Of a stretch of 64,000 bases of DNA, positions 22,862 through 44,277 are shown piece by piece (position 1 is the stretch's first letter; each line of letters opens with the position of its first letter). This DNA comes from Candidatus Bathyarchaeota archaeon (GTDB lineage: Archaea; Thermoproteota; Bathyarchaeia; Bathyarchaeales; Bathycorpusculaceae). Position numbers and translations under genes: made by a program. The stretch is taken from positions 806,001 through 870,000 of the forward strand of contig JAOZHS010000002.1 of assembly GCA_026014745.1 (NCBI GenBank), in the 5' to 3' direction. The notes under the pieces are model-generated. The model was not told where the DNA came from, made no database searches, and was given only the letters and a program-made list of their open reading frames with translations.

Positions 22862-24952
22862 TTAAAAATAGCGAGTTAGAAAAAAGCCAGTGGACTTAGG
22901 CAACCGACTTTGCCAAACCTGAACGGGTGAATCATTACGATTAGCTAAAGTCCGAGCAACTAATCCAGCTTTCTCAGCCGCATTTAGCTTCTCCATTACA
23001 GCTGCCTCTGACGTGGGCATGTTGGAAAGCTTTGAGTATTCCTCAGCGATAGCCTGAGTGGATTTCTGTTCGCCTACGGCTTCAACTGCTTTTATAAGAT
23101 ACTGTTCCGGTACAGGAAGTTTCTGATACATCGTCAGTAACGACATCTTTTCCTTTCGGTTAAGGAAAATTGAATAGATGATAATAAGCATCAAGACTGA
23201 TGCTGCGCCGATGGAGAGCAGCAGCCCATTTTGGCTAATGGCCAAGGAAACAACACTCCAACTGCGGATAGGTTGCCAGAAATCGTTGATTGCTTGTGCA
23301 ATGGGAAGCTCTTGAGCTTCACAAGAGCTGATTTCGTCTACAGATTGCGGGTACATTATTAGACTCATCATGACGCTCTTGGTTTGAGCTGTGCCGTTCA
23401 CATCGAATGTGGCAGTTTCAAACCAGTAGAGGACCACTTCCATTTGTCCTGAGCTGAGATATCGGAATGCAAAGTAACGCGCCATCAAAGGCGGGTTATC
23501 TTGAAGTTGGATATCTTGCAGATCTAGCTGCTCAACTGTTGCTTCTTCACCTTGACTCAGAGGGAAGTTAATCAGACATGTTTCCCAGCGGTGCTGCGAC
23601 GTGGAACTCTCAGCAATTTGAACAGCAACCCAGACAGCTGAAGCAGAGGAATTGGTTGGAGAATAACAATAAACCAAAGCTGCATCATTGCCCGAGGTCT
23701 GCTCAAAAGAGACATCACGATAAACATAATTTAGGTTATAGCCCTTAACGGCAGGTAAAGAAGAATTTGAAGGAGTAACCTGAGTACCTGAAGGCGCTTG
23801 AATCATAATTTCTGCAGGACCCTCAGTTAAAGCGAAGACGGGAGCCTGGATGGATAAAAGCGCGATTATTACCAAAACTACTCCAGCCACTTTTGCTATG
23901 TCGATTTTGTTTAGTCTAATTTTTGGAGTTTTGAAGATTTTGCCGCAGTTTGAACAAAATTCTAAGGTGAGGTTTTTTGGCGTAGGTGTGCATGCAGGGC
24001 AAATCTGTGGAGCGGGCGGTTTTTTGAAGACTTTTTCAGTTACGCCAAGCAGTATAAGGGTACCTATGAACATGAGCACGGTTGCGCCAAAGGTGTGGAA
24101 TACCTGAAGCGCTAAATCTTCGCCCCAATTGTAAGCGATTCCTAGAATGGTGGTTATTCGGGTGATGTTTAACCCTATGATTAAGGGGATACCTAGTATG
24201 AGGATTATTAGCTTGTTAAGCAGTTTGCCTTTTGTTATATAGGCGATAAAAACTGCAAAAATCATAAAGCCAATTATGCTGTAGATTCCTGAGCAAGCCA
24301 CACTAACATTGAATGGTAAAGATGTGCCGTCGGGTCTGAGAATAGTAATCATTGGACCATAATCACTTGAAGACAACGTGGCATTAAAACCGAAAACGTT
24401 AGCAAGACCATTAGATGCTATCGCGCTTAGATTGGCAAGAGCCGAACCTACACCGTAGAGGATTTCTGAGGGAGGTGGCGTTAGGAATATTAGAAAAGCC
24501 ACAGGAAACAGCATCTGTTTGAGCATCTGAGTGTTAAATAAGATGAGAATCAATCCGGCAGCAAAGAAAGGCAAAGTAATCACATGATATTCTAAAGGCG
24601 TAAAGGTATAACTGCCGTACCAATACAACAGAACGGAAACTGCGGATAAAGTTATGCCGACAAGTAAACCTGAATATTTCAAGAAGCCATGCTTATTCTC
24701 AGTCTCGTTTGAATAGATAGAGGCGCCAAGCATTTTCCGTTTTCGATAAATGAAGTAAGTGAAAATGAATGGAATCGCCAATATATGGAAAGTTGATTCA
24801 TCGCTGATGGCGCCTTTAAAGACCAGCGTTAGATCTTGAAAATAGAATGCAAGAAGCGCCAAGGCCAACACGGACACCTTTAAGGCGACAACTAACCGAT
24901 GTTGATTCAGTGGCGATGCCATCTTGGCGGATGAAAGTTTAGCATCTTGCAT
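22862..24952 (-). CDS. Archaeosortase/exosortase-family protein with zinc ribbon and EpsI-like domain
   Basis: A 696-residue polytopic protein. Residues ~20-305 form the exosortase/archaeosortase core with about eight membrane helices and the expected catalytic triad: Cys220 in VACSGIYS, Arg265 in LNITRITTI, His286 in FHTFGATV. A zinc ribbon (Cys318, 321, 333, 336) follows, then a membrane helix (355-375), an extracellular domain of ~180 residues resembling the exosortase-associated EpsI/DUF3485 fold, another helix and a cytoplasmic helical tail. The family cleaves C-terminal sorting signals of surface proteins and probably attaches them to lipid or glycan. It sits at the downstream edge of the glycan island. 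Confidence 0.85.
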   Translation of the reverse strand: MQDAKLSSAKMASPLNQHRLVVALKVSVLALALLAFYFQDLTLVFKGAISDESTFHILAIPFIFTYFIYRKRKMLGASIYSNETENKHGFLKYSGLLVGITLSAVSVLLYWYGSYTFTPLEYHVITLPFFAAGLILILFNTQMLKQMLFPVAFLIFLTPPPSEILYGVGSALANLSAIASNGLANVFGFNATLSSSDYGPMITILRPDGTSLPFNVSVACSGIYSIIGFMIFAVFIAYITKGKLLNKLIILILGIPLIIGLNITRITTILGIAYNWGEDLALQVFHTFGATVLMFIGTLILLGVTEKVFKKPPAPQICPACTPTPKNLTLEFCSNCGKIFKTPKIRLNKIDIAKVAGVVLVIIALLSIQAPVFALTEGPAEIMIQAPSGTQVTPSNSSLPAVKGYNLNYVYRDVSFEQTSGNDAALVYCYSPTNSSASAVWVAVQIAESSTSQHRWETCLINFPLSQGEEATVEQLDLQDIQLQDNPPLMARYFAFRYLSSGQMEVVLYWFETATFDVNGTAQTKSVMMSLIMYPQSVDEISSCEAQELPIAQAINDFWQPIRSWSVVSLAISQNGLLLSIGAASVLMLIIIYSIFLNRKEKMSLLTMYQKLPVPEQYLIKAVEAVGEQKSTQAIAEEYSKLSNMPTSEAAVMEKLNAAEKAGLVARTLANRNDSPVQVWQSRLPKSTGFFLTRYF

Positions 24953-25183: not shown

Positions 25184-27004
25184 TCAAAGTGCAGATTTAC
25201 GGTTGTTAAAGCGGCACATCCACTGCATATACCTTAAAGGAACCATAAATAACTTGGAAAGCGCTCCTAAGCCCGAAACCATAGACTTAAAGTTCCCAAT
25301 ATCAGTCTCGTTTATAGCGCCCAAAAGTGGAGCAGTTGACAAATATGTCACCAAGAAAATTATTAAGCCGCCGAAAAGCGATAATAAATAAGGCAGACTA
25401 ACAAACGTGACAAAAACATAAGCCACGGCCGAAGCAATCAATGAAGATACAAGAATTTTGAAGGAAATCTTGAAGTCAGCATGCACCTTATAGGTTTTCC
25501 AACACCAATAACTAGCCCAAGCAGCATTTATTGCTGTCGAAAAGAAGTTTCCAAGAATACCCGCAACAACTGCATGAACTGGACCGCCAAAGGAGTAAAA
25601 GTAACCAACCGCGACCAATGCAAGAGGCAAACCCACAGCTAGCATAACCAAACTTTGTTTCATGAGTTGGCGGGTTTGCCGAAGACCCGTTTGGAAACTT
25701 GACAAAGTATAGAAGCCAATTACAACAAGCAGGCTAGTCAAGCAGGATAGTGAAAGGAAAAGAGGTGCATAGGGATATTTGGGGACTGGACTTATTGCGG
25801 TTAGGCCTTGCAGAAAGCCAACTTGGGGGAACAACAGATTGATTGCAGGCGTTGACAGCGTTATCAAAAGCAAAGAGGCAGGCACCAGAAGTATGGACAT
25901 ATATTTTACGGCAGAAGAAAAAACTGTCTTGAGAAGTTCGGGTTCACGTTCTGGATTAATTTTTGAAAAGACTGGAAACAGTGTGTTGGAGACGGGTAGA
26001 ATGATGAAGGTTGTTAATATAACAAAGTATGTTGATACATAGTAATTGCCCATCATTTCTTTGCCTGCATAAACCGCCATGGTAAAAGCGAAAACTTGCG
26101 GCAAAACCCCAAAAACAATTGCCGAAACCGTAAGGGGCAACCCATAACTCAGCATAGGCCTCAAAGTTGCCTTGATATTACAGCGACCAGTTTTACATTT
26201 ACCCAAGGGTCTGAACAAAGAAAAATACACAATAAGAATCGCGATGATGCCACCGGCGACAAATGAAGCCATAGCAGCATAAATGGCGCCTAGCACACCA
26301 AACCCAATAACAATCAAGAGCGGACCTAAAGCGGTTTTTACGAGCGCCTGAAGAATCAGGGTTAAACTGTTAAGTTTCATTCGCTCAAACCCAAGGAAAA
26401 TGCCGCTACCGGCAGCGAAAAGTGCACCTCCAAATATTGAAAAAGACATCACCGATATGTAGAAAGAAAGCTCTGAAACGTCGCTAGGGCTGAGCAAGTA
26501 AGCTAACGGTTGCGCAACTGCAAAGCAAACCACGGACAAAACGATGCCACTAATGAGCTCGAAGAGCACACCGGCGTAAATTAGGTCATGTGCATCATAG
26601 TCTTTGCCAGTGGCTCTTAAGCGAGCTATCTGCTGAGTTAATGCAGAATTCACACCCCAGTCCCTAAAGAAACCGATAATAGTTGAAGGAATGAGAGCCA
26701 TCCCGTATAAGCCGACTTGATCAGCGTTAAGCAACGCAGCCAAAACAAAGGTGCCAATAGCCATTATAATTGATGACCCAGCGACACCTATCATAAGCTG
26801 TAAACTACTTGTCGCTGAAGACTTACCTATCGCTAAAGCCTTATCCAAGCCACACCATGACCAAACGTTTCGGTTTATAGAATTAATCTGATTTTTATAC
26901 GCTTTGTGTATTCCCAATATATTCCAAAGGTTAACATACAATCGTTCGAATATACTGCAACCGAGAATGCAATAGCATTCGCTAGCAACTAATAAAATTG
27001 CCAA
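25184..27004 (-). CDS. Oligosaccharide flippase (Wzx/MATE-type)
   Basis: A 606-residue membrane protein with about 14 hydrophobic helices in the polysaccharide-biosynthesis flippase (MOP) fold. Typical features: an opening helix 'SSLQLMIGVAGSSIIMAIGTF', 'RDWGVNSALTQQIARLRATG' after helix 2, and paired helices throughout. It would flip lipid-linked glycan across the membrane. The first ~52 residues are not membrane-like and look unrelated to the family, so the real start may be TTG 26848 (LDKALAIGKSSA). Neighbours are the archaeosortase downstream and an unknown membrane protein upstream. Confidence 0.88.
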   Translation of the reverse strand: MAILLVASECYCILGCSIFERLYVNLWNILGIHKAYKNQINSINRNVWSWCGLDKALAIGKSSATSSLQLMIGVAGSSIIMAIGTFVLAALLNADQVGLYGMALIPSTIIGFFRDWGVNSALTQQIARLRATGKDYDAHDLIYAGVLFELISGIVLSVVCFAVAQPLAYLLSPSDVSELSFYISVMSFSIFGGALFAAGSGIFLGFERMKLNSLTLILQALVKTALGPLLIVIGFGVLGAIYAAMASFVAGGIIAILIVYFSLFRPLGKCKTGRCNIKATLRPMLSYGLPLTVSAIVFGVLPQVFAFTMAVYAGKEMMGNYYVSTYFVILTTFIILPVSNTLFPVFSKINPEREPELLKTVFSSAVKYMSILLVPASLLLITLSTPAINLLFPQVGFLQGLTAISPVPKYPYAPLFLSLSCLTSLLVVIGFYTLSSFQTGLRQTRQLMKQSLVMLAVGLPLALVAVGYFYSFGGPVHAVVAGILGNFFSTAINAAWASYWCWKTYKVHADFKISFKILVSSLIASAVAYVFVTFVSLPYLLSLFGGLIIFLVTYLSTAPLLGAINETDIGNFKSMVSGLGALSKLFMVPLRYMQWMCRFNNRKSAL

Positions 27005-27134: not shown

Positions 27135-28502
27135 TTAATTTGTCGTGGGCTTTTGGATGTTATAAATTAAGAACAGTTTTCGGTGTCCAGTTGCGCATTC
27201 AGGGATAATATCAGTTACTTTTATTTCGCCTAACCAATCAGCCACTGTCTTAAACCCTGATTTTGTTAGGTAAAAGGTTAAGTCGTAGTCTTTCGAAGTT
27301 GCAGGAGACGATGGGTCAAAGATTTTAGTGATGTACTCTACAGAGGCAACATCGGATTCAAGCGTTGACTCGGATGTTTTACAAACTTCGACGAATTCTA
27401 AGAAGCCAACGGTTACGTCTCCGCCATCAGTATAACCTTCAATTCGGTAGGAGGGAGATTGTGGAATTTCAGCAGGAACAAGCAGCACAGTATCGCCAGA
27501 TTTCTTAAAATGCGTAAGAGAATCAGAAGGAACATTGATTTCAAAAGCAGTAGGTTGGCTATCGGCGTTTTCCGCAGGTAGAGCAGACAAATCCTCGCTT
27601 TCGGGAATTTCAATTGACTCTTGAGGAGGAGGCGAAACTTCAGGAGGCTGAGAGACCGCTGTGGACGTTAATTCTGGAAGAGGCGAAAGGGTAAGGGGTG
27701 CGTTAGGAATGACTTTTGGAATTACAAAGTCCACATCATTAATCATTTGATATTCTATCGTTATAGTTTTGTTTTCCTGATTTACAGTTTCATTTTGAAT
27801 GATAACGGGTTTGCCAGTTACTTTTGCCAAAGCACAAGCTATTGCGCTTGAAAAAAGACAACCCATTTGAGTATGTATGTGAGGGTAGTCCACCGAAGTT
27901 TTTTTGCAGATACTCTCGAAAACAGTGTCAGTAATTATTGCCGAGACTGTATTCCCACTATAGGATAGCTCAATAGTCTTAGCTACTTCAAGATTATCTA
28001 CAAGAAGCTTAGGAAGTGCATCCGCAAATTGTTTTAAATCCAGTCTTGTAAAAGAAGTGTTTAATTCTTTCTCAAATAATTGAGAAAGCTCAAAGCCTGA
28101 GGGAGTAATAAACAACCCGTCCTTATTAGGGTGGGGTGAAGTCACATCCGCTATAGGCGTTGATGGCGTTTGGCTCTTCCCAGAAATAAAAATTAAGCTT
28201 GATTCTGAATTGTCCAAATTCTTGGGGGGGAGATAAATTCCTTTTTCTGCAGAACCGAAATCAGAAAGTACACGTTCAATATTTTGATTATTGCAATTGG
28301 CCATTGATTCGGCAAGCGTTAATGGCAAGTGTTTAACTGGGGTTAAATAAAAAAGTATGGCGCCCCAAAAGGCGACGGCTGTTCCCAAAATCGCTAAGAA
28401 AGATGAGCCTGAAAATGCGGAAACGACAACTATCATTATGCCTAAAGTGATTAGGAGATATTTGCTTATTTGGTTCAGGGTCCATTTTTTTTGTTTAGGC
28501 AT
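27135..28502 (-). CDS. Membrane-anchored protein of unknown function in glycan island
   Basis: A 455-residue protein with two N-terminal membrane helices (about 11-32 and 34-56), a mostly cytoplasmic alpha/beta region (150-260) with the conserved-looking CLFSSAIACALAKVTGKPV, a Pro/Ser/Glu-rich linker (280-335) and a C-terminal alpha/beta domain ending in 'TDIIPECATGHRKLFLIYN'. The alpha/beta region resembles small ligand-binding domains (such as V4R-like), but I could not place it with confidence. Its place between flippase and epimerase suggests a regulatory or assembly role in surface glycan export. Confidence 0.6.
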   Translation of the reverse strand: MPKQKKWTLNQISKYLLITLGIMIVVVSAFSGSSFLAILGTAVAFWGAILFYLTPVKHLPLTLAESMANCNNQNIERVLSDFGSAEKGIYLPPKNLDNSESSLIFISGKSQTPSTPIADVTSPHPNKDGLFITPSGFELSQLFEKELNTSFTRLDLKQFADALPKLLVDNLEVAKTIELSYSGNTVSAIITDTVFESICKKTSVDYPHIHTQMGCLFSSAIACALAKVTGKPVIIQNETVNQENKTITIEYQMINDVDFVIPKVIPNAPLTLSPLPELTSTAVSQPPEVSPPPQESIEIPESEDLSALPAENADSQPTAFEINVPSDSLTHFKKSGDTVLLVPAEIPQSPSYRIEGYTDGGDVTVGFLEFVEVCKTSESTLESDVASVEYITKIFDPSSPATSKDYDLTFYLTKSGFKTVADWLGEIKVTDIIPECATGHRKLFLIYNIQKPTTN

Positions 28503-28651: not shown

Positions 28652-29611
28652 TTAACTGCTAAGCAAACCATTCCAACTTAGCAAGTCCCTGAGCCCGCGA
28701 GGCAGCAAAAATTGTGGTTTGTAACCTAAAAGCTCATTTGCCTTAGAAATATTGGCGTAGCTGCATCGAATTTCGCCTGGTCGGTACGGTAAATAAGATA
28801 TTTGGGAGTTTGCCCCCGTCAATCTCAACATAGTTTGCGCAAGCTCCTCGATCGAGGTCGCTACACCTGATCCAACATTGAAAATCTCGCCGAGTACTGT
28901 AGAACTTTCATACGCTAGCACAATTGAATTCACTATGTCTTCAACGTAGACGAAGTCTCTAGTTTGCGAGCCATCACCATAGATGACTAGTGACTGCTTT
29001 GATTTGATGCGGTCCATGAACTTGGTGATGACGCCACTGTAATCATTTAATCCTTGCCGAGCCCCATAGACATTAAAAAATCGCAGAACAACTGAATTCA
29101 ACAGATGCTCAGCGTTAAGCCGAAGGCACTCCTTCTCGATGACCCGTTTGGATTCAGCGTAAGGCGAAATAGGATTTGTCGGATGATGTTCATCTAAGGG
29201 TAAATAGGTGGGGTCACCATAAACTGCGCAGGAAGAAACAAAAACAAATTTCTTAACCGAATGGCTAACGCATTCCTCCAGCAAAATACGGGAGCCATCG
29301 ATATTGACTTTATTGTTGAAATCTGGGTCTGCAACAGAAAATGGTACACTTGTTTGGGCAGCAAGATGAATAACGCAATCAGCATCAGTGACACATTGTT
29401 TAACAGTCATTTGATCCGTTATGTCGCCTTTAACAAAATCAACTAAACCGGACCTCAGAACAGAACTAAGGTTCTCTAATTTACCAGTATACAAGTTGTC
29501 CAAAATTACAACTCGATAACCAAGTTCCACTAATCTAGAAACAAGATGACTGCCAATAAAACCAGCACCACCAGTCACCAAAATGGTGCTATCTTTAGTT
29601 GAGTTTTTCAT
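28652..29611 (-). CDS. NAD-dependent nucleotide-sugar epimerase (GalE-like SDR)
   Basis: A 319-residue extended short-chain dehydrogenase. It has the Rossmann motif GGAGFIGSHL at residues 14-23, the catalytic Tyr-Lys pair in SPYAESKRVIEKE near 150 and the catalytic Ser/Thr in VFVSSCAVYGDP near 125. The family interconverts or dehydrates NDP-sugars; UDP-glucose/UDP-GlcNAc 4-epimerase is the likeliest, but 4,6-dehydratase cannot be excluded. It would supply sugar donors to the neighbouring glycosyltransferases. The protein is near family length. Confidence 0.92.
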   Translation of the reverse strand: MKNSTKDSTILVTGGAGFIGSHLVSRLVELGYRVVILDNLYTGKLENLSSVLRSGLVDFVKGDITDQMTVKQCVTDADCVIHLAAQTSVPFSVADPDFNNKVNIDGSRILLEECVSHSVKKFVFVSSCAVYGDPTYLPLDEHHPTNPISPYAESKRVIEKECLRLNAEHLLNSVVLRFFNVYGARQGLNDYSGVITKFMDRIKSKQSLVIYGDGSQTRDFVYVEDIVNSIVLAYESSTVLGEIFNVGSGVATSIEELAQTMLRLTGANSQISYLPYRPGEIRCSYANISKANELLGYKPQFLLPRGLRDLLSWNGLLSS

Positions 29612-29745
29612 TTTAGAGCCTAACCCGAGATAACTAAGTTTTAGCTATTTCTGGAATTACTTAATTATTATGTTTTTCTTCGCCCTACTTGCGGTATAAG
29701 GTCTCAGACAAATCGAGAACTGTACTTATGTTGAACAGTAGTAGT

Positions 29746-29814
29746 GTAACGCACTAAAACAGAAAAGGATTATTTATCGCACACCTTATGACTCGATAAA
29801 TCAGGTTGCGTTAC
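29746..29814 (+). promoter_or_regulatory. Nested inverted repeats in the leader of the secreted glycosidase gene
   Basis: Two perfect 8-bp inverted repeats are nested. The outer pair is GTAACGCA (29746-29753) with TGCGTTAC (29807-29814); the inner pair is ATTTATCG (29772-29779) with CGATAAAT (29794-29801). The outer right arm ends 1 nt before ATG 29816, so in RNA it would occupy the ribosome-binding region. It could act as a translation-control hairpin or as paired operator sites. Confidence 0.45.
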
Positions 29815-29815
29815 C

Positions 29816-30853
29816 ATGGACAGATTTAAGAAATTATTCTTAATCACTTTAGTCTTGGTAATGGCTTGTCCAATAAGTCAAATTTCGTGGGCGTCTGCCC
29901 AAACATCGACGAGTAGCCAAATTTCTACACATGGGACAATAGTAACCAACACCGGAGGGAGCATCATTGTTCCAACAGTACAAGTACATACAGGCACCCT
30001 TGCTGTCCATCTAATAAACAATCAAAACGTTATGTACTCTTCTTGGAGCGTCGCACGCCCATACGTGAAGTACGCGCTAGTTCAAGGGGGAGGAAATCTA
30101 TCGGAAGATGGAAGTATTACTCCAGTTTTCTACAACGATGTAAGCTTGGGGTCGCTCGAAAACTATTTCGCACTTGCACAGAGTTACAACGTCAACCTTA
30201 TTCTAGATTTAGCTATTGTCAACCTTCAAAATGTAAGTGACCAAGCAATACTGAACTTATTAACGAAACTATCAGCCATAGCTGGCGGTCATACGCTCAT
30301 CTTTGACATCGGGTGGGAGTACAACTTCCCTAATTACATGACCCCGTGGGGTGATGATAAAGGCCACTCATTCTATATTCCGCCAGATGTTTACAACACC
30401 AAAATGGCTCTTGTCCATACCTATATACAGCAAAACCACTTAGACAATCTTCTGCTAGCCAGCCACGCTAACATGTTAATTAGCACAGAGAAAGCTGGAG
30501 AATGGCATAGCAACCCAAACTTTGATGGAATTGTAGAATACTTGGACGGGATGCGCCAGGCAGATGTTGTAGGTTTCTCTCACTATAACGACAACCTTAA
30601 CCAAAGCTGGAGTCGGGCTCAAGCAATCTACAATATGATAGGCACATCAAAGCCCTGCATATTCTTCGAGTATGCACCAACAAGCCCATGGCAAACAGGT
30701 CTAATAGTTACGCCTCAATTTGTGAACGACTCATATGCTATGTTAAAAACATACACGTTCATCAAAGGCATGATTTGGTATTTTGGACCTTACTGCACGA
30801 ATGAAACCTTAGTAGCCATAAGTCAAAACGCGAAGATATTTGAAGGCGTATAA
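29816..30853 (+). CDS. Secreted TIM-barrel glycosidase-like protein
   Basis: A 345-residue exported protein with a signal peptide (KLFLITLVLVMACPISQISW) and no C-terminal anchor. The ~270-residue core has the alternating helix/strand pattern of a TIM barrel, with strand motifs 'VNLILDLAIVN' and 'HTLIFDIGWEYNF' (candidate acid/base Glu) and 'KPCIFFEYAP' (candidate nucleophile Glu). Two Glu on strands 4 and 7 are the clan A glycoside hydrolase arrangement. It is the only plus-strand gene in the glycan island, suggesting independent regulation. Surface-polysaccharide trimming is inferred. Confidence 0.6.
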   Translation: MDRFKKLFLITLVLVMACPISQISWASAQTSTSSQISTHGTIVTNTGGSIIVPTVQVHTGTLAVHLINNQNVMYSSWSVARPYVKYALVQGGGNLSEDGSITPVFYNDVSLGSLENYFALAQSYNVNLILDLAIVNLQNVSDQAILNLLTKLSAIAGGHTLIFDIGWEYNFPNYMTPWGDDKGHSFYIPPDVYNTKMALVHTYIQQNHLDNLLLASHANMLISTEKAGEWHSNPNFDGIVEYLDGMRQADVVGFSHYNDNLNQSWSRAQAIYNMIGTSKPCIFFEYAPTSPWQTGLIVTPQFVNDSYAMLKTYTFIKGMIWYFGPYCTNETLVAISQNAKIFEGV

Positions 30854-30992
30854 AGAGGCTAAGATAATTTAAGATAAAAAAACAAGCAACGCAGCAATAA
30901 AACATGGATTACCATTAAATGCGCAAGAGTATTTTGAGAGATAGCGTTTTTCTAAGGACTGCGCATACACAAAGCAATTACGCATAGCAGAA

Positions 30993-31604
30993 TTAGAGAT
31001 GTGCCAGACTATAATATTGAATAATTAGCGCTATTACGGAAAAGATTACAGTCAGCCCAAGTAAACTTAGCATCAGGGGCACTAACGTTATCCCCCATGG
31101 CGAGTAATTTAAAAACAGACACACCAGCGGAGCTATAACTAAGCTAATGGCAATACTGAGCGCAACTTGTTCGGTTCTTTTTAAGGTAGTTTCAGAAGAG
31201 CTTTTGTTTTCGCCTCTTTCAAGATGTAACGCCTTAACGCAAGCAAACCCAGGTAAAAAGGAAATAATTAGAATACCCAACCCATACCGAAGATACACAA
31301 CAAGGAAGAAATCGCTAGGTATAAATGCAACTATTGTTGCGACCATAGATAGCAGAATGGTCACCCAAAACCATGTTGCGTTCTCCGATAAAAAATGGTC
31401 CCATAATGTAAGAAATCGGCCCTTTTTCTGATCGAAAAATATTTCTCTCTCATTTTCAATGATCTCGAACATAATTTCATCTGAAATTGAGTATTTCAGC
31501 TTCATTATGTCTAAAAGTTGCTGAACTGTAGCGGGCTTTTCAGCTTTAACAAAGTGAAGCATTAGTTTCTTTATTTGTTCTCTATCGTTCACAGATTCAG
31601 GCAT
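30993..31604 (-). CDS. DUF1616-type membrane protein (helical N-domain plus transmembrane part)
   Basis: A 203-residue protein. The first ~60 residues are helical and resemble a small winged-helix or effector domain (REQIKKLMLHFVKAEKPATVQ). Four membrane helices follow (about 73-90, 98-118, 145-165, 172-198). The motif 'YLRYGLGILIISFLPGFACVKALHLER' (here in part) and 'NYSPWGITLVPL' are those of DUF1616. Full-length DUF1616 proteins continue into an exported beta domain; here that domain appears as a separate gene at 39926-40513. Confidence 0.7.
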   Translation of the reverse strand: MPESVNDREQIKKLMLHFVKAEKPATVQQLLDIMKLKYSISDEIMFEIIENEREIFFDQKKGRFLTLWDHFLSENATWFWVTILLSMVATIVAFIPSDFFLVVYLRYGLGILIISFLPGFACVKALHLERGENKSSSETTLKRTEQVALSIAISLVIAPLVCLFLNYSPWGITLVPLMLSLLGLTVIFSVIALIIQYYSLAHL

Positions 31605-31617
31605 TTCATCATCTACG

Positions 31618-31851
31618 TTAGGTAATATTTGCGATAAAGCTTATGACTCTAAAGATAAACACCACCGAGAATACGATGCTCAACAGCAGCGCTAAGTATC
31701 TCAGTCTTCTTTTGTTTATTGTAAGATTGATACTACGGTAGTATGGAGATAACAGTTCTGATAGTGCAAGAATCACAATAGCACTTACCGCTATTAAGAC
31801 ACTAAAGTCAGTAAAATCTAATGGTGGAATTTGGATAGTAATTTCCCTCAC
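31618..31851 (-). CDS. Small two-helix membrane protein
   Basis: A 77-residue protein with two membrane helices (about 18-36 and 50-72) separated by a polar, basic loop (YYRSINLTINKRRLRYL). It lies 13 bp upstream of the DUF1616-like gene and is probably co-transcribed. No family was recognised; it could be a partner of the DUF1616 membrane domain. Confidence 0.6.
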   Translation of the reverse strand: MREITIQIPPLDFTDFSVLIAVSAIVILALSELLSPYYRSINLTINKRRLRYLALLLSIVFSVVFIFRVISFIANIT

Positions 31852-32028
31852 ATAATCTTACATGCAATGCATGTGAAACTTATTCCAAGCATACTTTTCA
31901 ATACTTCAAGGGGCTCTAACCAACTACGACAATACAACCTTATCGCAGCGCCAATTTTCAACATCTAAATAATTACCAGTCTCTCGATAGAAGTATCAAA
32001 TATATTCCGTTGCTTAATCGCCAATTGC

Positions 32029-33192
32029 TTAAACCTTTTTTAAACCAGATTTTACCATCAGAAAGCTATCAGCAAAGCTTACATGAGGTTTAAGGAAAAT
32101 TTCAACGGCATCAGGATACCCGCGCACTTTTAAAGTCTTAAAGAAATCTTCCCTTTGGGGAGACTTATAAATGGATTGTTCAGCGACTCGCGGATTTTCC
32201 TTTTTAACCTGATCAAGCGAAATGTTATGTTTTTTTACATTTTCAAGGGTATTAATCAAATCTTTACCTTTTGAATTGTTGATTAAAACTACCGACAAAC
32301 CCCGTTTGTCAAAAAGATTCTTGGGCGCTCCCCAAAAGTCACCAAGCGTGATATCAGATATTCTTGGAACTTTCGCAAAAGGGCAGTTATAGCATGATTC
32401 CCGAAGGTAAATGTTTCTTAAATATCCCACCATGAAAGAATCGCGTCTGTGAAGCTTAAAATACTCTGAATCGTCGGCAAACCGTGCTTTAGAACCGAAG
32501 TTTTCCCAACTAAGACGCTTATCCCGAAAGCTGTATTCTACCAGTCGAGAAGCCTTTTTGAGAGACAAATATGACAAGTATTCTTCAAAAACTAGTTGCG
32601 ATCCAACACCATGACAGATGACATCACACAAATATAGTTTCTGAACACCTTGCGCAGTGCTTTCTTTTTCTACGAGATTTTTCAAGGCGGCAGTTTGGCA
32701 GGGGGTACCACAAAAAAGAGTTGGCCTTTTTTCCTTTAATGAGTTTAAGACATCTAAGTAAGCGTTACCTATTTGACTTTGAACATATTTTGAACCTCTT
32801 AGAAGTGCCAAGTTCTCATCTGTTTCCGCACAGATGTGCCTTAAATTAAAATTTTCATCAAAAGCTGCCCCAAAAACCAAGCCATTATTATCAATAATTT
32901 GCCTTGCCAGCTCCGAAAAGATGCCTCCAGAGGAGCTCTGAAGCCTTAATTCATCATTTTGCGATGAGGCTGCAATAACTTGAGGGACAGAGGGGTTTTC
33001 TTCAGGCAGATTAAGTATAGGACAATAGTGTTGACAAATCCCGCAAAGTGTGCATTTGTTTTTATCAATATTCGGAAGCAAAAAGCCCTCATCATTTAAT
33101 GACGTTGAAATGGCGTGTGATGGACAAGAACTTTGACAAGCATAGCAGCCAGCGCATCTATTCTTGCCTATTTCTTCTATCGCAGGCTTCAA
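32029..33192 (-). CDS. Ferredoxin-FrhB-like (coenzyme F420 hydrogenase beta-type) protein
   Basis: A 387-residue predicted iron-sulfur flavoprotein. The N-terminus holds two [4Fe-4S] clusters: CAGCYACQSSCP near residue 14 and CTLCGICQHYCP near 47. FrhB N- and C-domains follow, with the family motif 'GTPCQTAAL' near 165 and 'CYNCPFAKVPRISDITLGDF' near 265. FrhB relatives transfer electrons between F420H2 or a flavin and a substrate. It overlaps the pyruvyltransferase gene by 4 bp, a pairing repeatedly seen in surface-polysaccharide clusters, so a redox step on a sugar or pyruvate group is inferred. Confidence 0.85.
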   Translation of the reverse strand: MKPAIEEIGKNRCAGCYACQSSCPSHAISTSLNDEGFLLPNIDKNKCTLCGICQHYCPILNLPEENPSVPQVIAASSQNDELRLQSSSGGIFSELARQIIDNNGLVFGAAFDENFNLRHICAETDENLALLRGSKYVQSQIGNAYLDVLNSLKEKRPTLFCGTPCQTAALKNLVEKESTAQGVQKLYLCDVICHGVGSQLVFEEYLSYLSLKKASRLVEYSFRDKRLSWENFGSKARFADDSEYFKLHRRDSFMVGYLRNIYLRESCYNCPFAKVPRISDITLGDFWGAPKNLFDKRGLSVVLINNSKGKDLINTLENVKKHNISLDQVKKENPRVAEQSIYKSPQREDFFKTLKVRGYPDAVEIFLKPHVSFADSFLMVKSGLKKV

Positions 33193-34442
33193 TTCTCCAA
33201 CTCCTTAAGTGTATCGGCCATTGAATCAATTTGAGTTAAGGCCCTTTCCTTGTTGCACTTCACAGCAGACAGGATCCGTGCAATAATATTCTCGTAGTTA
33301 TCAAGTAAATAATTGACGCGCCCAGAGAGTATATTTACGACTTCACCTGAATCCCAAAGACTGGGAATATCTGCATCTATAACAAGTTCGTCTAAATTGA
33401 GACCTCTTTTAATAACCCCATCGAATTTATCGCTGGAAGATATTGATAAGGCGGGCTTACCCATTTGCAAAGTTGAGACCGCAGCGTGCATCCTACCAGT
33501 TATTGTGAACAAACCATTTCCGAGAATGCTTCGCGCTTCGCTCGGCAAGAGAACATCATTTATGAAGACAAATCTGTCTTGAAGGCTTTTTTCCATTCTT
33601 TCTTTAATTTGAGCTATTATTTTTCGGTCATCATGGCTCGCAGTCAAAACGTGAGGCAACAGTACTAATTTGTAGCTTTCCAAACGAGTCATTGTAGCGA
33701 CATTCTCCAAAATACGCACCCAACAGCGGACATAATTCTCGCGCTTAGAAGTGTAAAAATGGCTTAGACCCGAGACAACTATCGTTACATATGAGTTGCT
33801 TTTTATTCCGTATTTTTTAAGAGGCGCATTCATCCAATTTAGGTTTGATTGTTTAGGTAAATCTAAAAAAGCAAGGTCCCTTGTTTCAATAACATTCTGG
33901 CAATGGAGAACGTTAAGCGCATAATTATATGACGCTCGGTCCCTTGCATAGATATGGCATTTACTTAACAGCGGTCCGACAATTAACTTGCGCCAAGAGT
34001 AGAAAGGACCTATCGTTTGACCAGCAAAAAACACAGGAGTTCGGGAAGATAATAAGCGTACTTTGGCTAAATTCAAAGCTATGTCACCGCCGTAATAATA
34101 CTCGCCCAGATTATCACCGCCGACATCAATAACACAGGTTGGAGTTAATGAAAGGATATTTATGGCTGACAAGAAGGCGCCCCTAACTTCCTTCATCGCT
34201 TCTTTGAGTTTTTGACCTTTATGATGAACCCTCTTCGTTGGCATCCAAAGGATTTTTGGTGTGTTGCCTGTTTCATCGGTTAGCCGTTTAATATCATTTT
34301 CTTTTAAAGCATCAACTATAAAAGAAATATTTGGACCCATCTTTTTAGAAAGATAATAAATTAGATTTATGCACATCATCGCCGAACCATAGTTTTGTGT
34401 GTCATTAGCACTTAAGATAACAATTTTTACCAATTGAGCCAC
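33189..34442 (-). CDS. Polysaccharide pyruvyl transferase family protein
   Basis: A 417-residue protein with the GT-B-like fold of the polysaccharide pyruvyltransferase family (CsaB/WcaK type). Visible features: 'NDTQNYGSAMMCINLIYYL' at the start, 'VIDVGGDNLGEYY' near residue 108, 'FAGQTIGPF' near 140, 'DLAFLDLP' near 190, and 'TGRMHAAVSTLQMGKPALSI' near 320 with the conserved His. It would ketalise a sugar with pyruvate from phosphoenolpyruvate, giving the glycan negative charge and often a protein-binding epitope. It is translationally coupled to the FrhB-like gene. Confidence 0.87.
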   Translation of the reverse strand: MAQLVKIVILSANDTQNYGSAMMCINLIYYLSKKMGPNISFIVDALKENDIKRLTDETGNTPKILWMPTKRVHHKGQKLKEAMKEVRGAFLSAINILSLTPTCVIDVGGDNLGEYYYGGDIALNLAKVRLLSSRTPVFFAGQTIGPFYSWRKLIVGPLLSKCHIYARDRASYNYALNVLHCQNVIETRDLAFLDLPKQSNLNWMNAPLKKYGIKSNSYVTIVVSGLSHFYTSKRENYVRCWVRILENVATMTRLESYKLVLLPHVLTASHDDRKIIAQIKERMEKSLQDRFVFINDVLLPSEARSILGNGLFTITGRMHAAVSTLQMGKPALSISSSDKFDGVIKRGLNLDELVIDADIPSLWDSGEVVNILSGRVNYLLDNYENIIARILSAVKCNKERALTQIDSMADTLKELEN

Positions 34443-34574
34443 CTTAGCGTGTTTTGTAAAGTTTATTTTATTTTGATCTTTTGAGATTATCCGAAAATTG
34501 AAGAGGGCAAAATGGCTTTTGGATACACAACAATACTGAGGACGAACATATTGTTTTTAAAAGCTATACAAGAA

Positions 34575-35495
34575 CTAAAGATATTGCACATCTATCATTG
34601 CTGCATAATTCATCGCTATCTTGTAAGCGTTTGTTCCAAGACAGGCAAGGGTGAAAGAGAAATAACCGCGAAGGCTGCCGTGGTTATAGTTAATAGCTCG
34701 ACTGTAGCACCACCTTGCTTTTGCCTTAAAACCAGATTTTAGGTAATAGCTTCCAAGGGACATAAACCATTTGTACAGAATCTCATTTCGATTGGGTGCC
34801 TTCAATACTTCTTTCAAGTTCTTTTTCATTATGCGATGAAGGGCATCAATACTATAGGAATATTTCTTGCTAAGTTGATGCCTATGTACTCGGTAATAGA
34901 CCAAGGGCTCATTTATTTGGGCAAGACTAAACTGTTTACTTAAGCGAATGACAAAATCCCAATCCTCCGCTGCCTTCAGATTTTCGTCAAAGCTCAGTTC
35001 ATCAATGCAAGCACGTTTCAAAAGTAGACCTGAACAATTCCCCAGAATATTTTCAGCTAAAAGAGAATAATACAAATTTTGAAAAGTTTGAGGCTTTCGA
35101 AGAAGTGCAACTTTCCGGGATTCATCAATGAGAACATAGTAAGAGGATTCAAAAACTCCGTCAAAATCACTTTGACTTTTCAAGATGTCATACTGGACCT
35201 GAAGCTTATGGGGCAACCACATATCATCGTCATCCAAGAAAGCAATAAAGTCACCTTTAGCTTTTGTTAGCCCCAAGTTTCTTGCTGCACAAACGCCTTT
35301 GTCAGATTTAAGGAAAAAATAATTCAACCTAGGATCTTTAAAAGAGGAAACAATCTCTTTTGTATTATCCGTTGAGGCAGAATCAATTATCAAAACTTCG
35401 AAATCTTTGAAGGACTGCAACAGGATACTCTGGATTGCATTATTCAATAAGCGAGAACGATTTTTAGTCGGAATTACAACCGAGACAGCAGGCAT
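34575..35495 (-). CDS. Family 2 glycosyltransferase
   Basis: A 306-residue GT-A enzyme of family 2. It has the N-terminal VSVVIPTKNRSRLLNNAIQS, the nucleotide-sugar region 'DFEVLIIDSASTDNTKEIV' and the metal-binding DDDD cluster (FIAFLDDDDMWLPHK near 88-102). A later 'AAEDWDFVIRLSK' holds the probable catalytic Asp/Glu. The C-terminal 60 residues are helical and basic. It transfers a sugar from an NDP donor to a growing glycan; donor and acceptor are unknown. Confidence 0.92.
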   Translation of the reverse strand: MPAVSVVIPTKNRSRLLNNAIQSILLQSFKDFEVLIIDSASTDNTKEIVSSFKDPRLNYFFLKSDKGVCAARNLGLTKAKGDFIAFLDDDDMWLPHKLQVQYDILKSQSDFDGVFESSYYVLIDESRKVALLRKPQTFQNLYYSLLAENILGNCSGLLLKRACIDELSFDENLKAAEDWDFVIRLSKQFSLAQINEPLVYYRVHRHQLSKKYSYSIDALHRIMKKNLKEVLKAPNRNEILYKWFMSLGSYYLKSGFKAKARWCYSRAINYNHGSLRGYFSFTLACLGTNAYKIAMNYAAMIDVQYL

Positions 35496-35653
35496 ATGAT
35501 AGCTCCTTTATCTTAATTATGTTTACCAATCAAGCATGTTTACTTTAAGGGCCAATTCACAAAAGCAAACATACCAAAACCTTTCACTATTCAAAGGGAC
35601 AGCACGCTGGATCTTTGCCGCCCTCAAGGTCCCACGCAGTATATAGTTAGTTC

Positions 35654-37402
35654 TCAACCTTTAGCATGCCCTAAAAGCATGTAAGACTCTCCGTTCGTGT
35701 AAACGACACTTGAATTGTAAACAGTCTCAAGTATAATGTCAGTCGTGCGATAAGGAGCCAATTCATCTATTATACCAGCCTTCCCAGGTGTATGAACCAT
35801 CAAAACGCTGTACGCCATATAAGGTGCCGTCGGATCAAGAGGATAATACTTCACTAAATGTTCAGCCACAAAACTATAGTTTGCCACCTGCAATAATTGC
35901 TCGTGTGTGTTCAAATCTGCGGCTATTCTACCAGAGCTAAAATGGGTGATTGCAAAATTCGCTATTTGCCTTTGATACACAGAGTTAACGGCATTTGCAT
36001 ACCCAATAGGCACTTCAGAGGACAAATCTGGATACACTGAATTAGCAGACGCTATTAAAGGCTGGCAACTGTAGACTTGAATCACTGCAGTAAACATTAT
36101 TAATATTACAAATAGCCCCGATAACCACTTTCTTTTCTTGTAAAATTTGGCTATGAAAAAGCCGACAAAAATAGGGAACAGAAGAGATTCGAATGCAAGC
36201 GCTCGAGTAGGGCCGAATTTTAGCACGACACCCAAAAAAATGAAAACGACCAACAAAATTCCCACGACAATGATGAAACGAGCACGGTCATTCAATTTTT
36301 TTCTTTCCTTTAGTAACAAAAGCAAACCAAATAAAGTGAGAACCAGAAGGACTAAGACCGCGCCATAATAAACTGAAAAGGTTCTTACTGCACCAAAAAA
36401 GTCGTGCTCCAACAGGGTATAGAAAGTTGGAGAAATTGACTCTGAGGAAGGAGTAGTACCACTAGGTACACCCACAAAAAATGTCCGCAAAACGTTTGTA
36501 AGAGCAGGGTAACTCATAAACAAAAGCCAAGCACAAGTTATTGCGATAGTTATAAAAATGATATTATTACGGAAACAAGATTTTAGATTGAGCCTCTGGA
36601 GGGCGTTAAACGGAAATCTTTGGACTATTAAAAAGGTGATCAGGATCAATGATAAAAGTATAGAGGAGGCGGAGTGAGCGGCCGCCAAAGCAACGGCGAA
36701 GAAAAAGGCAAGCAAGAGATATCGTCTATCGTTTCCCTTTATCAAGGAAATAAAAGTGTAGAATATAATTAGAACGAGCAGAAGGCCAATTGTAGATCCA
36801 GTGATTTCATACTGGACTATTGAAAATGGAATAGAGGATAAGAGCAGAGCAAACTTTGTTACGCTTTCTCCTGAAGGAAGGGCAAGTTTCTTTACTATTA
36901 AATAGGTAAAAAGCGGATAAAGGGGGGCTAAAAGGAGGGGTATATACTTCATTGCATCGACAACAGGCACATTTAGTATAATTGAAAACGCCGAGAATAA
37001 CAAATGAAATAACGGCGCCCCACTATAGTCAGGCGCAATAGAAGAAGAAAATGGCGCTATGTGTCCTGTTGTAATAACAGTATTGGCTAAGTTGTATTGA
37101 AAACTTTGATCTTGATAGACGCCTTGGAACCAGACATATTTTAGGATAGGAACAGATAGAAAAACCACTCTGCCTATACTCGCAATTGCGACAAGCCAAC
37201 CTTCTTCGCGCTCAGAAAAGAAGGCTATTAAAAAAATAATAGCAAACGCTAAAAAGGGAATCTCTAGACCTTCAAGAATCCAGCTATCTTGATAATCCCT
37301 AGTCAAGGCTACTATATTTGCGATAAGTACAACTACCGCAACTATCAGAAGCAACCTCAGGATTAGAGGACGACTTATAGAAAACTTCTTCACAGCCATC
37401 AT
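35654..37402 (-). CDS. GT-C-type membrane glycosyltransferase
   Basis: A 582-residue polytopic protein with about 12 membrane helices in the first 460 residues and an extracytoplasmic C-terminal domain of ~120 residues. The loop after the third helix contains 'YQDQSFQYNLANTVITTGH', with an acidic residue where GT-C enzymes keep a catalytic Asp, and 'PDYSGAPLFHLLFSAF'. The topology matches dolichyl-phosphate-sugar-dependent GT-C or DUF2206-like proteins. It probably adds a lipid-linked sugar outside the membrane. It overlaps the upstream glycosyltransferase gene by 4 bp. Confidence 0.75.
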   Translation of the reverse strand: MMAVKKFSISRPLILRLLLIVAVVVLIANIVALTRDYQDSWILEGLEIPFLAFAIIFLIAFFSEREEGWLVAIASIGRVVFLSVPILKYVWFQGVYQDQSFQYNLANTVITTGHIAPFSSSIAPDYSGAPLFHLLFSAFSIILNVPVVDAMKYIPLLLAPLYPLFTYLIVKKLALPSGESVTKFALLLSSIPFSIVQYEITGSTIGLLLVLIIFYTFISLIKGNDRRYLLLAFFFAVALAAAHSASSILLSLILITFLIVQRFPFNALQRLNLKSCFRNNIIFITIAITCAWLLFMSYPALTNVLRTFFVGVPSGTTPSSESISPTFYTLLEHDFFGAVRTFSVYYGAVLVLLVLTLFGLLLLLKERKKLNDRARFIIVVGILLVVFIFLGVVLKFGPTRALAFESLLFPIFVGFFIAKFYKKRKWLSGLFVILIMFTAVIQVYSCQPLIASANSVYPDLSSEVPIGYANAVNSVYQRQIANFAITHFSSGRIAADLNTHEQLLQVANYSFVAEHLVKYYPLDPTAPYMAYSVLMVHTPGKAGIIDELAPYRTTDIILETVYNSSVVYTNGESYMLLGHAKG

Positions 37403-38589
37403 TTTTCAATCATGCCGGCGATAATGTTCACATACCGTGCGCTCGCATTTTTGAGGTTGAACTTTTGGTCTACTTTGAGGATGTTTCTTTCACTAATGGT
37501 GTTCAAAGTTTGCTGATTGCAAGCACAAAGTTCACTTAGTGCGTTCAAAAATGAGTCTTTTTCTGGTGGTACGAGCAAACCATTAAGTTTATTCTCAAGT
37601 GCTTCTGAAAGCCCGCCCACATCGGTGGAAATTGGAATTGAGCCACAAGCCATGGCTTCTAACAGTACAGTGGGCAAGTTTTCATACAAAGAGGTAATGA
37701 GCAGAAAATCGCATAATGAGTATATTTCGGGCAGCACAGAGTTGTTGACATAACCAAGGAAAAGTACCCGATCTTGCTCCAATCGTCGAGCATAACTTCT
37801 AGCGTAGAGATGATCGGGTCCCATTCCTACAACGACGAATTTAACATTAATTTTCTTGGATGCCGCCATCACGTCAAATAAGAGTTCAAAGTTTTTGGCC
37901 CCTCCAACGGGAAGTTGAGCAACAAAAACAGCAAGGCGACTGTTTCCCTTAAACTCCAGAAGCTTTCGTGCGAGTTCAGGATTGGTGAAAGAGTCTCTTT
38001 TGAAGAAAACAGTAGTGTCTACGAAGTTTGGGACAACTTCGATTTTTGATTCATCAATGTTATAGTAATCTATTATCATCCGCTTTGTGTATTCGCTTAC
38101 GGCAATAGCACAATCAGCATTTTGAAGCATTTTCTTTTCTGAAGCTGTTAAAAACTTGCCAACCGGTGATAAGGTGAGTTTATCCTCTACACCCATTTTG
38201 CCATATTTTCTTAATGTTTCAAACGCAGGAAGAACAGCATGACTAATGGTCAATTCAGGTATGGCTGTGTTACTTATTTTTGGAATATGCGGATAAAATG
38301 GAGGTAAAGTTCTAATAATGAGCTTAGGCTCAGGCTGAGAACGTAGACGTAGAGAGGAAAGCAAGTCAAAGAAGGGGTTAAACAAACTGAACCCAAGAAA
38401 AGGCTCCGCAATCTCGTCGATTTTCAGGTTCGGGTGTGGAGCATTTTTGGCCAAGGCGCCTTTGTTTGCGTGGATTTGGACTTTAAAGCCTTCATCGAGC
38501 AGAAAATTCACAATACGCCTTGTGTGGCCACCTATTCCTCCAGCACCGAACTCAGGCGAGACAACAAGTAAGTTGGATTCTATACGCAT
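37399..38589 (-). CDS. Family 4 glycosyltransferase
   Basis: A GT-B glycosyltransferase of about 396 residues, starting at ATG 38589 with AAGGAG about 9 nt upstream; the frame stays open 24 codons further, into the upstream gene. It has the N-terminal 'VVSPEFGAGGIGGHTRRIVNFL' (shortened: GAGGIGGH loop) and a C-terminal domain with 'VFVAQLPVGGAKNFELLFDV', 'VLFLGYV', and the donor-binding 'ENLPTVLLEAMACGSIPI' containing the ExxxxxxxE motif. Retaining transfer from an NDP-sugar is expected. It is coupled to the GT-C gene by a 4-bp overlap. Confidence 0.92.
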   Translation of the reverse strand: MRIESNLLVVSPEFGAGGIGGHTRRIVNFLLDEGFKVQIHANKGALAKNAPHPNLKIDEIAEPFLGFSLFNPFFDLLSSLRLRSQPEPKLIIRTLPPFYPHIPKISNTAIPELTISHAVLPAFETLRKYGKMGVEDKLTLSPVGKFLTASEKKMLQNADCAIAVSEYTKRMIIDYYNIDESKIEVVPNFVDTTVFFKRDSFTNPELARKLLEFKGNSRLAVFVAQLPVGGAKNFELLFDVMAASKKINVKFVVVGMGPDHLYARSYARRLEQDRVLFLGYVNNSVLPEIYSLCDFLLITSLYENLPTVLLEAMACGSIPISTDVGGLSEALENKLNGLLVPPEKDSFLNALSELCACNQQTLNTISERNILKVDQKFNLKNASARYVNIIAGMIEK

Positions 38590-38627
38590 TTTTGTTTTTC
38601 TCCTTATCGTATAGTACCCTTTCGCCA

Positions 38628-39842
38628 TCAGCCTTGCCGGACATCTTCGATTTTCTCCCATTTATAGTCGGGGCCGTGGAAAAGCAGGATTAGCAAACCA
38701 GCAAACATGACAAATTGCATTAATATGAAGTCCAAGATAACACCAGCCATACGTAGACTTCCTCCCTGCTGGGATTGCCCCAACGTCACGGTAGTTGTCA
38801 ACGAATCCTTCTTGAACAAAGCAAAAAGGACAAGAGTAGCTAGAATGGCAGATAACAGGGGCACTAAAATAATCAGAGAGTTGAATGAAAATAATATGGC
38901 AACTATAAAACTAACAGAGCAAATCACTGTCAGTAAAGGCGCAACAACATTAATGAAAAACTCGAAAGGCAGTATTACCGATGAGAAATAGCTGTATTGC
39001 TTCTTGAACATCATGCCTGCAAAATTAAACAAAGCTTGCTGGTTGCCTTGGCTTCGTCGAATTTTTTGCTTGAGTCGGGATTTACGGCCGATTGATGAGT
39101 TTTCATAAAAGGATACACTGTCGTCGTAAATCGCTCGAAGTCCCTTCTTTCTAACACGAAGAGTCAACTGCATATCGTCACATATGCTGTTAGGGGGTAT
39201 TACTTCCAGTAGTTCCTTTCGGTAAGCAGCGAATTCACTCTCGCACATCACTACAGAGTCCATATTCGTTTCGCCCATTCTAAGAATATTGTAGAAGCTT
39301 CGGTACCCTTGCTCTTCTTGCGTTACAGCAGACTGGTCAGGGTTACGCATAACCTGTATGCCTGACACAGCTCCAACGGTTTCATCACCAAAATTGGTAA
39401 CTATTCTTTTCACTGCATCTGGGTCAACCGAGACATCGGCGTCTGTTAGAATAACTATATCACCTTTGCAAAATGGAAAAGCGTAATTTAACGCTGAGGC
39501 TTTACCCATACGTTTGCTTTGGGTTAAAATATCAACCTTGTTATGGGTTGTTTCGACAAAGGTTTGTACAGCTTCAACTGTTCCATCGTTCGAGGCGCTA
39601 TCAACTACCATAATCTGCAATTTCTCAGGAGGATAGTCAATCTCAAAGGTGTTCTTTAGTTTACGAGATATGACTTTTACCTCGTTATACGTTGTAATTA
39701 TTACTGAAACGGTCGGTAAGAAGTCCTTCTTGTTTACAGGGCATCGCTTGCGAGAGTAATATACCATCAGGGCAAAGAAAGCGGAAAAACCTGCCAAAAG
39801 TAAAAAGAAGGTTGAATAGAATATTATTTCAGCTATTGACAA
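38628..39842 (-). CDS. Membrane-bound family 2 glycosyltransferase
   Basis: A 404-residue processive-type GT2. A signal-anchor helix (residues 5-26) precedes the GT-A domain with VSVIITTYNEVKVISRKL near 45, DSASNDGT near 80, the DADV metal site (IVILTDADVSVDPDA near 130) and a later ICDDMQLTLRVRKKG. Then a Q(R)RxRW-like 'IRRSQGNQQ' and three or four C-terminal helices. This layout is that of hyaluronan/cellulose-synthase-like enzymes. It may polymerise a homopolymer or add a lipid-linked first sugar. Confidence 0.9.
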   Translation of the reverse strand: MSIAEIIFYSTFFLLLAGFSAFFALMVYYSRKRCPVNKKDFLPTVSVIITTYNEVKVISRKLKNTFEIDYPPEKLQIMVVDSASNDGTVEAVQTFVETTHNKVDILTQSKRMGKASALNYAFPFCKGDIVILTDADVSVDPDAVKRIVTNFGDETVGAVSGIQVMRNPDQSAVTQEEQGYRSFYNILRMGETNMDSVVMCESEFAAYRKELLEVIPPNSICDDMQLTLRVRKKGLRAIYDDSVSFYENSSIGRKSRLKQKIRRSQGNQQALFNFAGMMFKKQYSYFSSVILPFEFFINVVAPLLTVICSVSFIVAILFSFNSLIILVPLLSAILATLVLFALFKKDSLTTTVTLGQSQQGGSLRMAGVILDFILMQFVMFAGLLILLFHGPDYKWEKIEDVRQG

Positions 39843-39925
39843 TTATTTTAACCCCTATTTTTTGTAGAAGCAATCAATTTTTGTTACTTGCTTAATCTGA
39901 TATTTCGGTTGAAGGTTTATTGACA

Positions 39926-40513
39926 CTAAGCAATATTCATATAGAGACCCACGTAACGTGAGTTAAATTCAAGAGCGTTAGAGCTACCGTTAAAGAGCCA
40001 TAACTCAAAGTATAACTCACAAGAGAGGCCATGTTTTGTCGAGTCCGTCGAGACTGGCTTATCCAATTGGACACTAAGCCCATTAATCACTATACTCTTA
40101 ATTGCGGGTTCTGAGAAAGAGACTTCCTTTACAGAGAAATTGAAAGGTAACTCTCGAGTTTCCCCATCATTGATAACAAAGCGGAATTCATAAAGAGGCT
40201 GTTGTGAGCTAGGAACACCCGTTTGAACGTTCGGCAAGGCATCAGAATAGTTGCGTACTTTAGCGTAAAGCACATAGTATCCTGTTGACTGCAGGTGGTT
40301 GGTTATACCGATAAAAAGAGAATAATCGTCCCCAACGGTTACAGTTAATGGGTAGTCGAGGATAGTATGTTCAGGTCCAAGAAGATAAAGCTCTGAAAAC
40401 TGAATTTCCCTCGACGTATGTTCTAAGATAGCAGAGAAAAGAGGACCTGAAATTAGAAGAATGCCTATCAGACCTATCGCACAGAAAACCCATTTCAAAT
40501 GAATTAGCTTCAT
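39926..40513 (-). CDS. DUF1616-type exported beta domain
   Basis: A 195-residue protein with an N-terminal signal anchor (VFCAIGLIGILLISGPLFSA) and a beta-sandwich ectodomain. The phrase 'FSELYLLGPEHTILDYPLTVTVGDDYSLFIGITNH' (quoted in parts: YLLGPEHTILDYPLTV, GITNH) is the C-terminal module of DUF1616. The membrane module usually fused to it is encoded separately at 30993-31604. It may recognise or present the exported glycan. It lies between glycosyltransferase genes in the same direction. Confidence 0.7.
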   Translation of the reverse strand: MKLIHLKWVFCAIGLIGILLISGPLFSAILEHTSREIQFSELYLLGPEHTILDYPLTVTVGDDYSLFIGITNHLQSTGYYVLYAKVRNYSDALPNVQTGVPSSQQPLYEFRFVINDGETRELPFNFSVKEVSFSEPAIKSIVINGLSVQLDKPVSTDSTKHGLSCELYFELWLFNGSSNALEFNSRYVGLYMNIA

Positions 40514-40558
40514 CTGCCGATATCGACCTTGATATGATTATTAATTAGAGTGGTGATG

Positions 40559-44219: not shown

Positions 44220-44277
44220 CTCGGTAAAACATTTGAAGACGACATAGAAAAAGGAGCGTGAAGCTGACTTGTGTGGC

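Follow-up and report, generated by a model that had tools for sequence, protein, structure and literature searches.

The window, a stretch of 64,000 nucleotides from a contig of a Candidatus Bathyarchaeota archaeon, contains a reading frame for which an earlier reading, made from the sequence alone, had proposed an archaeosortase fused to a zinc ribbon and an EpsI-like ectodomain. The locus raises the question whether this chain is a sorting enzyme, which proteins it would act on and what the additional domains contribute. We consider it quite probable that the fused protein processes the substrates of a C-terminal sorting system for surface proteins. Its parts are:

22862..24952, (-) strand: sortase reading frame, 696 residues, ATG start (reading-frame call, profile matches, full-length relatives)
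24041..24862, (-) strand: exosortase core with eight transmembrane (TM) helices, residues 31–304 (PF09721, alignment, topology prediction)
24293–24295, 24158–24160 and 24095–24097, (-) strand: codons of the core residues C220, R265 and H286, whose predicted position is the outer face of the membrane
23945..24001, (-) strand: putative cytoplasmic zinc-ribbon motif CxxC-x11-CxxC, residues 318–336 (conserved Cys, weak Pfam matches)
23834..23890, (-) strand: TM helix leading into the ectodomain, residues 355–373 (averaged hydropathy)
23228..23824, (-) strand: EpsI/DUF3485-like ectodomain, residues ~377–575 (remote profile matches, invariant columns)
23576–23593, (-) strand: ectodomain motif H454-x-W-E-x-C459; a further motif of this domain, Y509-W510, lies outside these positions
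23168..23224, (-) strand: last TM helix, residues 577–595 (averaged hydropathy)
22901..23155, (-) strand: winged-helix-like cytoplasmic tail of Orc1/Cdc6-type pattern, residues 600–684 (weak but consistent wHTH matches, column pattern, low-confidence helical model)

As judged by profiles and alignment, the 696-residue frame is a genuine exosortase/archaeosortase, as had been proposed. Residues 31–304 match Exosortase_EpsH (PF09721) with E=1.2e-33 and 117 bits (cut-off 25.7) in the HMM search, and residues 215–308 carry the exosortase/archaeosortase signature TIGR04178 with 61.1 bits (cut-off 23). The highest NCBIfam subfamily scores were those of XrtW, XrtD and XrtA, which are bacterial-type 8-TM exosortases; none of the named NCBIfam subfamilies XrtA–XrtY and ArtA–ArtF reached its cut-off with the window protein. 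Since all subfamily scores are far below the cut-offs, the protein is regarded as a superfamily member outside every named subfamily. A whole-genome search (2.7-Mb genome) found the fused sortase as a single copy. The same genome also encodes a second, unfused archaeosortase of 351 residues (C1:75695-76744, locus L045; TIGR04178, 55 bits) of a kind that is common in the order.

The catalytic set Cys220, Arg265 and His286, which the sequence-only reading had placed at exosortase positions, is conserved in an alignment of 31 relatives: C220 and R265 are each present in 31/31 sequences and H286 in 30/31, with Glu in the remaining one. Tens of genomes from the same order encode full-length relatives with 31–65% identity, the named ones being MAGs labelled Nitrososphaerota archaeon, and one further full-length relative was found in a genome from another family group of the class. 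The sortases of two congeners (G114, G125) are ~30% identical to that of the window and keep the catalytic, zinc-ribbon and ectodomain motifs. Because relatives are found in tens of genomes and the motifs are kept at ~30% identity, the architecture is an established one, neither a single fusion nor an assembly error, and at the level of sequence comparison the four-part chain is an order-level architecture. Literature searches for archaeosortase together with Bathyarchaeia, or with the EpsI domain, found nothing. The sequence-only reading had mentioned neither the order-wide conservation nor the winged-helix-like tail nor the C-terminal tags, one of which lies within the window.

The topology was predicted from averaged hydropathy and positive-inside counts over the alignment. 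Three regions are predicted to be inside: the loop past the C220 helix (25 Lys+Arg per 100 residues), the stretch with the zinc ribbon (19 per 100) and the final 98 residues (18 per 100), the last in agreement with the cytoplasmic tail read from the sequence. The loop before H286, with 0.2 Lys+Arg and 11 Asp+Glu per 100, and the ectodomain, with 6.5 Lys+Arg per 100 and the highest density of N-glycosylation sequons, are predicted to be outside. C220, R265 and H286 would all be located near the outer face of this multi-spanning protein.

The four zinc-ribbon cysteines that had been noticed after the core, C318, C321, C333 and C336, form two CxxC knuckles of predicted cytoplasmic location and are near-invariant (retained in 30–31 of the 31 relatives). 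Pfam zinc-ribbon models are below cut-off for the window protein and match weakly in many family members. The role that had been suggested for the zinc ribbon, a link between sorting and a further partner, is unproven; the best genomic candidate for such a partner is the adjacent gene at 27135–28502. Farther on, the C-terminal 85 residues display an Orc1/Cdc6-type winged-helix column pattern with D-x-P-x-x-x-W at its end. Weak winged-helix matches were obtained with the consensus (Cdc6_C, E=0.007; Orc1/Cdc6 family, 0.011; Lrs14, 0.017), several unrelated winged-helix models being among the top weak matches. An AlphaFold model of the tail has helices where they are expected, at low confidence (pLDDT 55); the model of the whole chain, with three sequences as input, has a pLDDT of 39. 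The assignment of the tail as a winged helix is thus suggestive.

For the ectodomain, the proposed EpsI-like character was supported by the relatives but not by the window protein itself. With the latter alone, DUF3485 (PF11984) gave no match at E<=1, whereas the G054 orthologue matches at the correct position with E=1.8e-4 and the consensus of the closest clade with E=2e-5 (24.8 bits, missing the cut-off of 26.1; profile positions 3–155 of 203). At E<=1 four of the 31 family members match DUF3485, and the G054 orthologue provides the only match at E<=1e-3 among 250 genomes of the phylum. EpsI_fam (TIGR02914) is the only NCBIfam match of the clade consensus and a weak one (E=0.039, 13.4 vs 42.8 bits). 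H454, E457, Y509 and W510 are invariant in the 31 relatives, W456 and C459 near-invariant. We take the ectodomain as a presumable remote EpsI homologue, with a match below the curated cut-off but specific. A PDB sequence search returned nothing for the ectodomain consensus and only chance-level matches for the full profile. Plasmid records searched for exosortase/EpsI relatives contained no match at 1e-3; with the consensus, matches were of XrtE type or weak (E 4–5). The paper that defined EpsI gives no known function for it and describes it as either fused to 8TM proteins or located next to them (PMC1569441).

The sortase gene ends a polysaccharide cluster whose genes mostly run in the same direction, and exosortases have been tied to such loci before (PMC1569441). 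Its neighbours in the window are:

25184..27004, (-) strand: Wzx-type polysaccharide flippase directly upstream of the sortase (PF01943, E 2.7e-26)
27135..28502, (-) strand: conserved partner gene (locus survey, alignment, profile)
28652..45396, (-) strand: polysaccharide locus with epimerase, pyruvyl transferase, GT1/GT2 glycosyltransferases, DegT aminotransferase and DUF1616 halves (Pfam)

The partner protein consists of two TM helices and a cytoplasmic-looking domain with a GCPLSSAIACALAKATGKP-type motif. Of 21 sortase loci, 15 have a member of its family at or near the sortase; high scorers of the partner profile are mostly sortase-linked, and remoter paralogues are also found in sortase-less genomes. 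The protein from the window has a C-terminal extension of ~190 residues which is absent in the other 11 homologues aligned. DUF1616 is split in this locus, with 30993–31604 and 39926–40513 (both (-) strand) matching its N- and C-terminal halves; by eye, a helical, winged-helix-like domain can be recognised at the N terminus of the former. Immediately downstream of the sortase gene, a PAS histidine kinase is encoded at 20944–22143 ((-) strand); of the 21 sortase loci, only 2 contain a member of its family. This protein is matched by PrsK (TIGR02916), the model of the PEP-CTERM kinase, but generic kinase models score higher. Beside the sortases of distant relatives, up to three copies are found of genes for small, N-terminally anchored secreted proteins that appear TasA/camelysin-like by eye (L057-L067, e.g. 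L062:5092-6229).

Candidate substrates were first sighted in other genomes, where secreted proteins adjoining the sortase end in VPE-x, a hydrophobic helix and basic residues. Twelve such tails, one of them from the window, were combined in profile A2. The sequence-only reading had pointed to a genome survey for C-terminal sorting tails, and the search of the own genome with A2 yielded 19 tailed proteins at E<=3e-5. The tails are located at the extreme C terminus, with the PE 27–39 residues before the end. Their consensus is xFVVPEYxLGALxALxACFAAFxxFK-(K/R), and a comparison of 21 tails showed PE in all 21, a Y in 15 and, within the helix, a Cys in 12. The residues inside the helix are patterned beyond mere hydrophobicity. 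Where the start of a tailed protein lies within the DNA read, a signal peptide is present in most cases. Among the tailed proteins are metallophosphatase-like, molybdopterin-oxidoreductase-like, NosD-type beta-helix, Ig-like and choice-of-anchor types. Choice-of-anchor domains owe their name to proteins whose surface anchors vary; one candidate substrate contains a choice-of-anchor R domain above cut-off. The candidate in the window is:

6326..6841, (-) strand: candidate substrate, secreted, 171 residues, with the tail FVLPESVIGGLSALGAALAAFVIFYVVKAKR at 6356–6448

This tail, which is one of the rows in both profiles, scores E 1.6e-12 with A2 and 1.1e-12 with profile A3. None of the NCBIfam sorting-signal models (PEP-, PEF-, PGF-, PEFG- and Loki-CTERM) covers the tail family. 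A CTERM cut-off was passed by one of nine tailed proteins (Loki-CTERM, 21.0 vs 19.9), and at E<=1 Loki-CTERM matches 2 of 17 tails and PEFG-CTERM 1 of 17. An idealised consensus tail is below the CTERM cut-offs and clears by a narrow margin that of the LPXTG anchor, an unrelated model (16.3 vs 15.9 bits, E 0.012). We conclude that the FVVPEY tails form a previously unmodelled family of sorting tags outside the NCBIfam library, which is probably recognised by the fused sortase. In another genome (G053), a protein encoded at L103:8413-9078 ((-) strand) ends in SAVPEPSTILLALALFAGLSLYTSRKK, a tail that resembles bacterial PEP-CTERM.

The distribution of enzyme and tails was compared with A3, which consists of 17 tails from the own genome only; it was applied to the 151 genomes of the order that had also been searched for the sortase. 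Within the genus, tails were found in 9/9 sortase-positive and 0/21 sortase-negative genomes (Fisher p=7e-8), and within the order in 19/38 vs 4/113 (p=2.7e-10); since the genomes are related, these p-values overstate independence. Most of the remaining sortase-positive genomes have a related tail, VPE[LVI]...ALGxxAxKRKK. When a second tail profile, A5, which is partly seeded from sortase-adjacent genes, was added, the order-wide counts were 34/38 vs 9/113 (p=4e-21). In these comparisons G112 is scored as sortase-positive on a 54-residue fragment. The exceptions are nine genomes with tails in which no sortase was detected and four of the reverse kind. Two of the nine are explained: in G124 the contig begins within the partner gene, and G067 contains a C-terminal sortase fragment. 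Outside the order, similar tails occur mainly in one distant genus (g141), with 3–5 per genome. One of these shares its locus with a partner homologue, with DUF1616 genes and with neighbours that look flippase-like and glycosyltransferase-like by eye; no sortase of the fused family was seen in the stretches of g141 that were read. The tails in L091-L094 of this genus are of the type VVPESILGAITAVTAPLAAL.

Three other readings have to be weighed against a processing enzyme for these tails. The VPEY tails might be processed by the second archaeosortase (C1:75695-76744), which is present in the genome and common in the order, while the fused sortase serves something else. However, the second enzyme occurs in 7/9 tail-positive and 10/21 tail-negative genomes of the genus (p=0.23), and order-wide its association with the tails reaches p=0.11 with the own-tail profile and 0.01 with the combined ones, compared with 2.7e-10 and 4e-21 for the fused sortase. 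As its distribution does not track the tails, the second archaeosortase is disfavoured as the tail enzyme, and we regard this reading as very improbable. It is also improbable that the tails are ordinary TM anchors and that the protein serves to polymerise or export polysaccharide rather than acting on proteins. The polysaccharide locus and the adjoining Wzx flippase would suit such a role, and a flippase or polymerase was the initial guess for EpsH (PMC1569441). Yet the tails have an invariant PE and a helix patterned beyond hydrophobicity and are missing from sortase-less congeners, and the sortase family conserves the Cys-Arg-His set.

A further reading takes the protein mainly as a membrane-tethered regulator, with an ectodomain that detects tagged proteins or glycan, a zinc ribbon and winged helix that target DNA, and sortase activity as a secondary function. 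It is consistent with a winged-helix-like tail conserved in almost all members and with similar N-terminal domains, seen by eye, in the neighbouring DUF1616 proteins. On the other hand, the catalytic residues rank with the best-conserved positions of the sortase, k-mers upstream of nine substrate genes revealed no shared motif that survives multiple testing, and winged helices can bind proteins too. We therefore hold a mainly regulatory role to be unlikely. A sortase that doubles as a one-component sensor is a somewhat less doubtful variant, which we put forward tentatively: the EpsI-like ectodomain or the active site would sense tagged proteins or the glycan acceptor, and the zinc ribbon and winged helix would relay this to transcription or to glycan machinery at the inner face.

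For the processing enzyme, which we prefer, the following course is proposed. Tagged proteins would be exported via Sec. Their tripartite tail, consisting of [FV]VxPE[YS], the patterned hydrophobic helix (GALxALxACFAAF) and basic residues, would be presented so that the VPE is recognised at the outer face, where C220 presumably cleaves near the V-P-E motif. By analogy to what ArtA is thought to do with PGF-CTERM, the new C terminus may be passed to a lipid or glycan carrier. The EpsI-like ectodomain could assist in handling the substrate or the acceptor. The zinc ribbon and the winged helix would be inner-face modules for docking, either to the partner or to glycan machinery, or for signalling.

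With an enzyme–tag pair defined for this uncultured archaeal lineage, sequence analysis suffices to list its surface-fixed proteins. The fused chain sets the EpsI-like domain in a fixed topology beside the catalytic core, and the two inner-face modules suggest that anchoring is coupled to cytoplasmic events. If the sensor reading were true, anchoring of surface proteins and gene control would be coupled in one chain.

Several known systems resemble the one described here. The best NCBIfam scores of the core belong to XrtW (NF038142; 74.7 bits, cut-off 425) and XrtD (TIGR04152; 67.7 bits, cut-off 400), whose models are 494 and 486 positions long; the core alone aligns, but the C-terminal half of the models does not. 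Loki-CTERM (NF033507) and PEFG-CTERM (TIGR04296) are likewise short archaeal C-terminal sorting tails, and the consensus of the tails described here is below the cut-off of Loki-CTERM. Archaeosortase A of Haloferax processes tripartite PGF-CTERM tails with lipid attachment (PMC7157517). It shares with our protein the archaeal origin, the superfamily and tripartite C-terminal tails; in contrast, no ArtA match is listed for the window protein, the tail motif is another one and additional domains are fused. A parallel in layout can be drawn to the PEP-CTERM/EpsH system with EpsI (TIGR02602, TIGR02914; Haft 2006, PMC1569441). Both have an 8-TM core with Cys-Arg-His, an EpsI region on the C-terminal side, a polysaccharide locus and tripartite tails found by phylogenetic profile. 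The system described here differs in being archaeal, in the zinc ribbon between the core and the EpsI-like domain, in the winged-helix-like tail that follows, and in its tag, which is VPEY with GALxALxACFAAF instead of PEP-CTERM.
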